This document shows positions 32,901 to 38,900 of a DNA stretch of 64,000 nt, piece after piece. Within the stretch, counting starts at the first letter, position 1, and each line of letters starts with the position of its first letter. Location: contig CM075858.1 in assembly GCA_037975125.1 (NCBI GenBank), forward strand, positions 66,378,140 through 66,442,139, given 5' to 3'. Source of the stretch: Latrodectus hesperus. Lineage: Eukaryota; Arthropoda; Arachnida; Araneae; Theridiidae. The notes under the pieces are model-generated. The model was not told the DNA's origin, made no database searches, and saw only the letters and a list, made by a program, of their open reading frames with translations. Made by a program: the position numbers and the translations under genes.

Positions 32901-35900
32901 ATGCTTAACAGTGGATGAATGTTTTATTGGATAGAAAATTTAATGCAATATAAATTGTGTATGGCAGATTTTCCTAAATTTCTATAAAACAAATAAATGT
33001 TTATTTCTGAATAAAATGTCTTTTATTTTCAAATAAATCTATAATTTACTTTAAGCTTAAATTTTTCATCTTAGGCATATGGCATAGATCCAAGAAATAT
33101 GCGAGTATTTACTCCTGAAGAACTTATTGAAGTAAGAATTCTTATCATATTTAATTTCATCTTATAATTTAACTTTACTTTATAAACATTTTAGATAAAT
33201 AGCATATTATATATATTTTTAGATAATAGACCTGTGCATATAACAAGTCCTAATTTATAAACTCACTGGTTTATTAAGTTAAGTTATAATATATTGAGAA
33301 ATTAGAACTCTAGTCTTCCAGTTCTATAATTTATGGATATTTGCACTTCAAGCCTAAGTGCTAGTTCAGGATCTATTTTAAATTGTATGTCTGAGTGCAA
33401 TTAACCCCTTTGTGCCAAAAATGATTGCAATGTGAGGACTTGTATAACCAATCGACACTGGTTCATTAAATAGTTAATTATTTCATTTGCATTTCAAAAA
33501 TCCTGTGAAATATGTACACAAAATTATATAAAAAAATCTCAATATTAATAGTTGGATCAGAAGTGCTTTGATCATTAGATGAATTATTAGATAAATCAAC
33601 CCTTATCTTAGATGTATGTTTGTAGTGGTTCATTTTAAAACAGTGAATTCCATTAAAAGTACTTTCATTTTTAAAGTGTGATAAATATGTTTAGCATGTG
33701 AAGTATCACTTCTTAAATCAATGCTACTTTTTACTAAGCTCAGTCATCATCTCAAATTTACTGTTTATTTTATCTGTATTAAACAAAACAATTAAAAAAT
33801 TACTTTATAAAATCAACTGAGATAGAAATATATTTTATTCCATGTATAGAAGTTGATGAAATTCCTAATGTTTCATGTTCGATTTTTGTTACTTTGATAA
33901 AAAAAAAAAAGAGAGAGAGAGAGAGAGAAAAACTATCGTCCTTCATCTTTATCTACATATAATGTAATGAAATATTATCGGGGTTCATATAACTCCTTAA
34001 ATTCGCCTGGAAACTCAGGTAATTTGAAAATTCTATTAAGGGCCCATGTAACTCCTGGAAGTTTGGCTTGACTCTTTGAAATTTGTGAATTATTACTGAA
34101 ATTTTTCTTACCTTGATGCATATATTTTTTGTTAGAAAATATTATAGTTCTTTAAGATTTTTGTTTTAACATTTAAAAATTTTCTATGAAATTGCTCGAA
34201 AACAAAATTAAGTATTAGCTTTTAATTCTTGTCTTCCAACGGTTAAATATTTGCATCTCGTTAATCCGATGTGTTGTCCTTTGGGGTAAATATATGCCTT
34301 TATGAATTTGTTTTCTGCAGTATGCTGCTATTAGTAAAGCTAGACCCATATCTTTGAAATGCAATAGAATGTGTATGACATTGTTTATGATGGACTTACA
34401 TATTTAAAAAAAGGGGTGATTTGGAGAGGGTAATATTTCTCGGAAAGAGAGAAGCTGTTGCTTGTTCCAGACATTGCAGATACTATTTGTGTTTCTTTTT
34501 GAGCAGTTTGTAAGTTTGTATTCTTTCACATCCATTTCAATTATGGTGTGTTTTACAAGATTTTTATTATTTGTCAAATATGCCTGATAGTAAGGACAGT
34601 GAGCTAGATGACTATCTTCCTTTATCTTCAAAATCAGAAGTGTTAGAATATGATATTATATTTAAATCACTCTATTCTTCAATTTTATATTTTCCTTGTT
34701 TTTTTCCTTTTTCTTTTGTTTTGTAAAAGTAAACAAATTGAAATGAAAAGCATGCCACTTTTTCTCCAATACGCAGCATAATTGTGCATACCTGTGTAAA
34801 AACTAATATTCTGATTAACGAATCTCATAGGTTTAACTCAGAAGGTAAGAGGCTGCACTATAGATATTAGATTGTATTCATAACAGTTGTTTAAAATGAA
34901 GATTTAGTTCAATAATAATTTATCTGCAATAACCTAATGATGATCCAGATCAGTCAGAACCAAATGTAGTACTTAGATTTATGTGTATGAGGTGAAGAGT
35001 AATCACCTATTAGATCATCATGTGGACAATTTTAATTGCTTCTTTTCCTATTTGTTTCTGTCTCTTTTATTGTATAAAATTAAACTGAATATAAAGATTT
35101 AAATATAAAATTTTTGAGTTAAAATATACTTTCTGCATCTTGCATAGTGAAAATTGCATATAATTTCAGTGAAAAGGGATGAATTTGTTTATCAGTCAAA
35201 TAAAGGTTGAAATAAATTATTTAATATGCCTGGTGGAAGGTGTCTTTTTAATAACCAAAAGACTATTGAAAAGCCATACAAAGATTGACATTTGTGTGGT
35301 TCAGAAAAAAAAAAAAAAAAGAATTTTGTTGAAGAGTTTGAATCATTGCAACCAACTATAAAATTTTGAAATTGTATTGTTTAGAAATTTGATCCTATTA
35401 AAGAATGAATTGATACATTTTATTTTAACGTACTCTCAAATAGACTAAATTATTGTAACTTATGGTAAAAAAATTAATTTGATTTTACTACTCTCTCATA
35501 GTCATAGTCAAGAATATGTTAAACATGAGTTTTCTGTGAACAAAAATTTGATCATAGAAAATTTAAATATTTAATTGTGGCTGAGTGCATTATTAATGGC
35601 CATGTCCGAAACATAGGAGGTGTCGACAAATTAATAATTAGCAAAGACCTACATATTTTTATTACTTGTTAGCAGCCAAAAGTATAAATTATACTCAGAT
35701 AAACTAAAATACTAAAAAAAAATAAATAATAGTCTACAACCAAAGGAAAGCAAAAAGCAATTTTTGAAAAAAAATGATGAACTGAAAATCAAAATGGAGC
35801 ATTGAGAAGATAGTATTGTCGCATAGAATAATTGGGAAACTCGTAAGGCAAAGCTTTTTATTTCACAGTTAGTATTCTTTCACAAAGGTGAGAATTAAAT

Positions 35901-38900
35901 TACATTCTGAGCTACTTGCTCTTTTATACGATAACAGAAAGTTCTGGAACACCAAAGAATTTTCTAGAATATTCGCACTTGAAATTAAACTCAAAAAATT
36001 TTCACGCCACTTGGAACGCTGGCTGATTCAATGGAAATCCGCTGCTTGAGCACTGAGTTACGGTGATCACGGCAGTGAAACGTTTTAAGCGTTTAAGCAA
36101 TTTTTGAAAAAAAATGATGAACTGAAAATCGAAATGGATCATTGAGAAGATAGTATTGTCGTATAGAATAATTGGGAAACTCGTAAGGCAAAGCTTTTTA
36201 TTTCACAGTTAGTATTCTTTCACAAAGGTGAGAATTAAATTACATTCTGAGCTACTTGCTCTTTTATACGATAACAGAAAGTTCTGGAACACCAAAGAAT
36301 TTTCTAGAATATTCGCACTTGAAATTAAACTCAAAAAATTTCCACGCCACTTGGAACGCTGGCTGATTCGATGGAAATCCGCTACTTGAGCACTGAGTTA
36401 CGGTGACCACGGCAGTGAAACGTTTTAAGCGGCAGTATATAGGAACTTGAAAAACTTACAATAAATATTTTTGGAATCTGAAATAACTGGTAAATAAACA
36501 TTAATCGCAAAATCAAACACCTGTCACCATGGTGTTTCAGTGAAGCAACAATTATTACTTAGTATTAATAAGGAATTAAAAGCAAAAGCTTTAAAGATGG
36601 AAAGTTGGCATTTTTTTTAATAGCAATATTGTATTTGCATAAATGAGAAAGAAATAGGAAAATCTGTTGAATGATTAAAAAAATAGAAAAGACCAGAATA
36701 TGGATGTGAAATTGAATTTTTTAAAAGAGTTTGAAAGTAAACAGAAGGAAAATTTAGAATTGCTTTTATTAAATAATAGTTAGAGAAAAAAAGTCCTTCT
36801 GGAAACTTTATCTGATATTTGTATTTATTTTGTTTTGAATAAGTATATTTATTTGAAAAGAAATTGTTCTAAACATCTTGAAATACTCGATAAATTAATA
36901 GATAAAAATCTAATGAAGATGTTTAAAAAATTTTAAATAATCGATTATTATATACAATGTGTAATTCAGCAATGTAAAGAATATTGAATATTTAAGTAGT
37001 TTTTTTTCTGTTATAGCTGTAAATTCATTAGACTTTTGAATTAATTATTAAATATAATTCTAACTTAAACAAAGAAAAATATTCTCATTAATTTTTGTAA
37101 TAATTTATTTTTATTATTTACAAATATAATTGAAAAATAACACATATACTTAATTATATGTATGTTTAGTTAAGAACAATTTTTTAAATAAAATAAAAAT
37201 TGATCTAACATGAATGTTAATACCTCCTGGAAAACTCTTGGAATTTTATTTTTGGAGATGATCTGTACGAATCTTGTATAACTGACTAAATTTAAGGAAA
37301 AGTGGGTGAATTAGGAAAAAGTATAAATCAATAAAATTCAAAGGTTGTGATCATTTCAGTCTAACCGGGAAGTGTAAAAATTTGTACATTGAAAGACATG
37401 TGATCCCAGTAAGATTTCAGCTGCAGTTAAACCATGGAAAAGGGTGCAAATTGTATTTACCATTACCATTGTTTACAATTGTATTGTATTGTAAAGACTG
37501 TAAAGAATTTAGGACAATACTATGCAAACTCAATTATTATGAATAGGGGAGGAATTGTAAGCATAATTGTAAAATTATTGAGAAATAATTAGAGAAATAT
37601 ATGATTGCAGAGTACTAATTAAAAATTATAAAATTTAATTGTAAATTGTATGAAAAAATTTATTTAATTCTATATTCACTACAGTATATTATTTTTTATT
37701 TGACTTCTTTTTGGAGTGGGGTGATTTGGAATAACTTTTAATAAATTTTATGTAAAAATATGCTTCATGTAAAAATATTGCTTCATTTCATCTATTAATA
37801 ACGTAGTCATGATGTATTTAATGTCAGTTCAAAATTGTTAATTTATTCTGTGGCAAAATAGAATGCAATTAGTAATAGTCAATTACTGATTTAAATTCAA
37901 TCCCATGTTTAAACAAATTGTAATTCCTATAGGATTATGTTAAACTGGTTGTTGCTTTAACCCTTTGACGCGCGCAATATTTTTTTTTTAATTTTAAACC
38001 AAAGAACTCTAAAAATTGAATTTTATGATCCCACAGACAAATAATACATGAATTTAAAAAAATCTACATCCACCCATTTATCTGTGGGTGGTGGTCGCAA
38101 GGCGCCCAGCGCGCGTCTAAGACATTGAAACTTCCTGAGTTAGTAGGGGGAAAAATTTACCTTGTTTCGTGCGCGCTTTCAATAAATGACAATTATTGCA
38201 AACTTCTTAGATAATTTGTATTTAAAATGCAGTATATTATTTTTTTACAATATTTTACAAAGTAAAGAGTAGGAAAAATGAAAAATTAAGCAATTATATA
38301 ATTTTGTTGCTATAAAAACACGATTTTTTCACTTTCTGTCTCCTATTCCAATTTATTTGTGTTACTCAGGAAGGAACAGGTAAATTTGTATCGATATTGT
38401 CCTCATCTTCTGATCCTTCATCACTTTCCACCTGAAAATTATCATTAGCAGTGAATGGCACATTTTCTTCTTTGTCACTATCATCACCCGAGATTTCTGA
38501 TTCTGGATCTGAAGGAAGTTCTTCAAATAAAGCCAATGCCTTAGCTATTCCTAGCCCTTTGCGAAGCATTTTCAATTTGAACAGTAGAAAAAAATATTTA
38601 CTCACAGTTAAAAATATTGCTATTAATTATTTTAAATTAAAATAAAACTTTTATGTAAATACTATTTTTTATAATATATATATATATATACACACATTAA
38701 ATCTTAAACACAGAAAATACTACTAAATAAAAATTTCTGTACTAGCCTGGTAGCAAACGCAACATTCAACGCAAAGAAAAATCTGAGGCTGAAAAGTCTT
38801 TCTGAAACAGAAATAGCGAAAGCACGTGTTCACTGGCGATATAAAGTCCACCTATTGTTTACAAGTAAAATGACCCTATGATTCAAATCCCCCTCCCTTA

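Follow-up and report, generated by a model that had tools for sequence, protein, structure and literature searches.

A predicted heat-shock-type promoter, tandemly duplicated and antisense within Nup133 of the spider Latrodectus hesperus

Introduction

Displaced heat-shock promoters are already known as a kind. In this study, we have explored 64,000 nucleotides of the spider Latrodectus hesperus (assembly GCA_037975125.1, contig CM075858.1, positions 66,378,140 to 66,442,139 of the forward strand; hereafter the window, with positions counted from its first letter), in which a tandemly duplicated unit carries a heat-shock element (HSE) and a TATA box inside the gene Nup133, on the opposite strand. 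Its closest precedent is the alpha-gamma element and alpha-beta repeat at 87C of Drosophila melanogaster, where a piece of the Hsp70 promoter is reported to drive, upon heat shock, the transcription of the alpha-gamma element as a non-coding retroelement chimera (PMC1794594; PMC1308810). In both cases a heat-shock promoter fragment is parted from its protein and lies in a tandemly repeated region, and the heat-induced non-coding RNA known in the fly would be predicted in the spider. The 87C element lies between Hsp70 genes and transcribes Dm88 and invader1 retroelement sequence (PMC1794594; PMC1308810), whereas the spider unit is antisense and intronic in a gene unrelated to these, and immediately downstream of it no transposon was identified.

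In human Alu elements, sites for the heat-shock factor (HSF) have been tied to antisense transcripts (PMC3334603; reviewed in PMC9032817). They resemble our unit as intragenic HSF sites antisense to a host transcript, and lowered sense RNA on heat has been proposed for Alus (PMC3334603). The Alu motif belongs to a very large repeat family, in contrast to the array of seven subunits, with a TATA box and an initiator match, that occurs in two copies in the window. In Caenorhabditis, HSEs have been spread by Helitrons, a link that the same study did not see in the other bilaterians examined (PMC6927752); the likeness lies in HSEs moved to new sites and multiplied in tandem, and the difference in that our unit has no detected Helitron-type 3' end and comprises a whole core promoter, not HSEs alone. 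Finally, the hsp70 genes of Stratiomys share the first 50 bp upstream of the start, which contain the TATA box and the first HSE (PMC4336284). The spider unit has a similarly compact stretch of TATA box and HSE upstream of its predicted start, and differs in that no hsp coding sequence was found downstream (Pfam, minus-strand frames, 20.1-39.9 kb).

Results

The unit and its elements are placed as follows.

35755..36094, minus strand: copy 1 of the promoter unit (Tandem Repeats Finder, TRF, and position-wise comparison)
36095..36431, minus strand: copy 2 of the promoter unit, which lies upstream of copy 1 when read on the minus strand (TRF, position-wise comparison and blastn)
35937..35974, no strand assigned: HSE of copy 1, seven of eight GAA/TTC subunits in 5-bp register (motif read)
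36277..36314, no strand assigned: HSE of copy 2, identical (motif read)
35921..35928, minus strand: TATA box TATAAAAG of copy 1 (octamer search)
36261..36268, minus strand: TATA box TATAAAAG of copy 2 (octamer search)
35892..35898, minus strand: initiator match YYANWYY of copy 1, A at 35896, predicted transcription start, 32 nt past the first T of the TATA box
36232..36238, minus strand: initiator match YYANWYY of copy 2, A at 36236, predicted transcription start
35755..35896, minus strand: leader-like stretch past the predicted start of copy 1, without a long reading frame (ATG frames read)

Both copies carry the same HSE, GAAag TTCtg GAAca CCaaa GAAtt TTCta GAAta TTC, in which seven of eight alternating GAA/TTC subunits stand in exact 5-bp register, as a first-pass annotation of this DNA had described. 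An HSF-responsive promoter is marked by at least three inverted nGAAn subunits in this register, a number that both copies exceed. The same annotation had thought chance unlikely, and our estimates agree: from the window's own frequencies of GAA and TTC, about 1.8e-6 arrays of seven in eight are expected per 64 kb, and a set of 12 third-order Markov random sequences gave best arrays of fewer than four subunits in seven cases, four in four and five in one. The array is not the product of chance. Its three-subunit core GAAnnTTCnnGAA is not rare when taken alone (0.83 expected per window from shuffles versus six found), and all six occurrences fall inside the two unit copies. Because copy 2 is a duplicate of copy 1, the finding of HSE and TATA box together counts as one event, not two.

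The TATA box TATAAAAG lies 8 bp from the HSE on the minus strand in both copies, at promoter distance as originally proposed. Twelve TATAAAAG octamers occur on the two strands of the window; in the 80 bp upstream, the two that belong to the units show seven subunits in register, as against one or two for the remaining ten. The initiator consensus is YYANWYY, and our comparison of initiator matches covered the octamers of the minus strand. Both unit octamers have a match 32 nt from the first T, while among the seven others on this strand one has a match at 26 nt, one at 14 and 47 nt, and five have none within 60 nt. Each copy combines, at promoter distance, the TATA box and predicted start region of an HSF-responsive promoter. 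Along the minus strand, the unit consists of about 120 bp of upstream DNA, the HSE, TATAAAAG, the initiator match and, last, some 140 bp of DNA that resembles a leader; relative to the predicted start, the HSE would lie about 41-78 bp ahead and the TATA box at -32, a layout that matches a compact hsp core promoter. That the array is instead an intronic heat-responsive enhancer of Nup133 seems to us highly improbable: HSF would bind regardless of direction, and the array does lie within this gene, but an enhancer would not need a TATA box and an initiator match, both found at promoter distance in the minus direction in each copy.

TRF reports two copies at 35755-36431 with a period of 340 and 98% identity, so that the unit length of 334 bp first put forward was slightly off. 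Compared position by position, the copies show 10 differences in 340; the last three (36092-36094) are junction bases beyond the end of copy 2, which leaves seven substitutions in 337 bp (2.1%), close to the divergence of roughly 2% noted before, and blastn gives 97.9% over 337. No difference falls in 35823-36001, the core that holds HSE, TATA box and leader. The sequence AAGC (plus strand) is common to both edges of the unit, with extra bases at the junction, as read from the DNA, and such short shared bases would suit a small local tandem duplication. The tandem state is as given by the genome assembly, and it might be an artefact in which two alleles were placed in tandem, with a single real promoter unit. 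The difference of about 2% is within what we take to be the range of allelic divergence; the break, at short shared bases with extra junction bases, is nevertheless like that of a real tandem duplication, which is suggestive only, and we consider an artefact very unlikely.

The unit has a G+C content of 0.35, versus 0.26 for the window, and an observed/expected CpG ratio of 1.07 versus 0.62; raised G+C and undepleted CpG would suit promoter-derived DNA. By blastn, no further copy of the unit exists within the window. Two exact unit pieces had no match among viral contigs, nor did one piece among prokaryote genomes or, with blastn, both unit copies among phage records, collections not built for animal DNA in which a zero says little.

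The leader-like stretch of copy 1 has two ATGs, opening 11 and 22 codons, and its counterpart in copy 2 has a frame of 46 codons that runs into copy 1; none of these is a heat-shock protein. At E 0.1, Pfam gave no family in the three frames of the minus strand over 30.0-39.9 and 20.1-30.0 kb, where an hsp gene would have its heat-shock protein frame, and no match on the minus strand at 39.8-49.7 kb, in two of the three plus-strand frames at 28-40 kb or in the three plus-strand frames at 4.0-13.9 kb. The earlier statement that no heat-shock protein frame lies downstream holds for the minus-strand frames scanned (20.1-49.7 kb), and a nested hsp or transposase gene was rejected for want of a Pfam match over the same frames. 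As a positive control, the stretch 46.5-56.4 kb yielded its mariner remnant to Pfam in one of three frames, at E 0.0093 and below the family's curated cut-off, and to PDB sequence searches in two frames. These mariner (Mos1/SETMAR-like) remnants occupy two frames at 51812-52739, with internal inverted and direct copies. Rfam had no family at its gathering threshold in the whole window.

The unit could also serve as the functional promoter of a gene nested on the minus strand, or of a long non-coding RNA gene under selection, with spliced exons further left. The promoter core is the same in both copies, G+C and CpG are raised, and the minus-strand protein-family scan began at 20.1 kb. We nonetheless judge such a gene to be improbable, given the frames without a Pfam match between 20.1 and 39.9 kb and the absence of an Rfam family.

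The first-pass annotation had also considered a mobile element with a heat-inducible promoter, and the unit might be a tandem remnant of such a family, in the manner of ONSEN, which is described as heat-activated in plants, or of the HSE-bearing Helitrons of Caenorhabditis. Cut-and-paste transposons have inverted repeats with a target-site duplication; in 34700-35765 and 36425-37500, we found a single weak match (three mismatches in 14), no better than the 1, 4, 4, 5 and 0 obtained at five control positions. Identical flank pairs reached at most 11-12-mers; these, for the most part AT-rich, were not taken as target duplications. Of 26 inverted-repeat pairs at 34.5-39.5 kb, 25 were inspected; most of these are AT-rich, and none encloses the unit in the manner of a terminal repeat. 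Under the stem rule that we assumed, no Helitron 3' end (a hairpin followed by CTRRT) was found on either strand at 33-39 kb. Neither a transposase nor a long terminal repeat (LTR) retrotransposon had a Pfam match in the minus-strand frames scanned (20.1-39.9 kb), LTR ends as such not being searched for.

The window also holds, besides the mariner remnants, two matches (37957 and 5645) to the pattern TTAACCCYTTG, which we take to be a piggyBac-like end motif, and two frames, 38369-38626 (minus strand) and 6384-6602 (plus strand), which are presumably piggyBac-like acidic N-termini; these speak for a mobile family. The two frames had no match in the Pfam scans covering them, the end at 37957 faces away from the unit, and its partner was not found. 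In the nematode study, Helitrons contain 61.4% of the HSEs of C. elegans, and no HSE-Helitron link was seen across a broad range of other bilaterians (PMC6927752). With ends no better than controls, no Helitron-type 3' end and no other copy of the unit in 64 kb, the mobile option was not substantiated, and we regard it as unlikely. Elsewhere in the window, we observed a second tandem duplication (55332-56115; about 360 bp with 86% matches, located around arrays of TA) and a 170-bp inverted repeat (45029-45197 and 45783-45951, 94% identical).

Nup133 is a plus-strand gene whose exons extend over 13.5-42.5 kb, with the unit inside and antisense. Those nearest the unit, and the C-terminal exon, are the following.

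28345..28406, plus strand: putative Nup133 exon left of the unit, ag/gt borders (weak tblastn match 28172-28403 to the presumed C-terminus of human Nup133, E 0.64; splice borders read)
40361..40441, plus strand: Nup133 exon right of the unit, ag/gt borders (tblastn match 40361-40435 to the same query, E 8e-5; splice borders read)
42417..42557, plus strand: C-terminal exon of Nup133, corresponding to residues 1104-1150 of the human protein (PDB sequence search, E 0.0012)

The PDB sequence search also placed Nup133 exons near 13.5, 15.9, 16.1, 16.7, 21.7 and 22.9 kb, in the correct order, some of which, taken singly, are weak (those at 16.1 and 22.9 kb have about 3 to 4 bits). Further exons were sought by tblastn with the presumed C-terminus of human Nup133, and this query matched at 25682-25849 (E 2e-9), at 42250-42345 with 42420-42557 (E 8e-9) and, more weakly, at 40564-40635 (E 5.7). 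As the PDB search of the three plus-strand frames gave no Nup133 match at 27-42 kb, support for the exons at 28 and 40 kb comes from the presumed human query and their splice borders. The firm bounds around the unit are 25849 and 40361, and the likely ones 28406 and 40361; with either pair, the promoter is within Nup133 and points against the gene. The setting antisense in a Nup133 intron is as first reported; the likely flanking exons on the plus strand end at 28406 on the left and begin at 40361 on the right. A short exon of about 21 codons was sought between 28.4 and 40.4 kb and not found, so this stretch may comprise either a single intron or two. In a protein collection that presumably contains few animal sequences, looking for Nup133 relatives gave one candidate sharing words and no match. 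Other PDB matches were dismissed as noise: DMIP17 (E 0.25-0.46), Shiga toxin B (38 residues, E 0.35-0.39), Na/K-ATPase beta (E 2.4), phosphoglucose isomerase (E 3.1) and Mediator subunit 11 (E 1.2-2.2).

Discussion

The HSE, the TATA box, the initiator match, the duplication and the antisense intronic setting can be read directly in this locus. Based on an HSE of seven in eight subunits far beyond chance, on the TATA box and initiator match in both copies, and on minus-strand frames without a Pfam match at 30.0-39.9 and 20.1-30.0 kb, we favour, with moderate confidence, a displaced hsp-type promoter and leader without coding sequence, tandemly duplicated in place and probably driving a heat-induced non-coding antisense RNA. 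Of the first-pass interpretation, the heat-shock-type promoter (by sequence tests), its duplication and its antisense position inside Nup133 stand, and the mobile element was not substantiated. The promoter and leader piece of an hsp gene, without its coding part, would have landed or been left antisense in a large intron of Nup133 and would then have been duplicated in tandem in place. Upon heat, HSF trimers would bind the seven-subunit element at about -41 to -78, and RNA polymerase II would start near 35896 and 36236, with the TATA box at -32, and move leftwards. The transcript made in this way would be non-coding and would run antisense to the pre-mRNA of Nup133. The origin from an hsp gene, the binding of HSF, the heat induction and the RNA itself are predictions from the sequence.

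Several points weigh against this displaced promoter. The initiator matches are loose, and an AATAAA lies 34 nt past the predicted start of copy 1, so that the transcript might stop early. The core without differences carries little weight as evidence (P 0.036 for the longest gap, chosen post hoc, and 0.15 for the preset block of HSE, TATA box and initiator); purifying selection on the promoter core, at which this pattern hinted, was accordingly set aside as insufficiently supported. The G+C content of the unit is not extreme, being reached by 8% of 340-bp windows, and the Pfam read-through is of limited sensitivity. Finally, a version entirely free of mobile DNA has to accommodate the presumed piggyBac-like end at 37957 and the presumed piggyBac-like frame at 38369-38626, which are situated 1.5-2.2 kb upstream on the same strand.

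An effect of the antisense RNA on Nup133 may be possible, as a matter of speculation. We find it very improbable that the captured and duplicated hsp promoter is a heat-triggered antisense switch that lowers Nup133 and links HSF to the supply of nuclear pores; we would sooner expect a neutral by-product than a regulatory switch. No description of a duplicated hsp promoter inside Nup133 was found in the open-access titles and abstract openings surveyed. What is new here is the tandem, intronic and antisense arrangement with so complete an HSE.

In conclusion, displaced heat-shock promoters show how stress-responsive transcription reaches new sites in the genome. If silent, the unit of L. hesperus would be a short-lived duplicate. 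If active, it would represent a further natural case akin to the 87C element of the fly, in which the effect on the host gene would be directly measurable.

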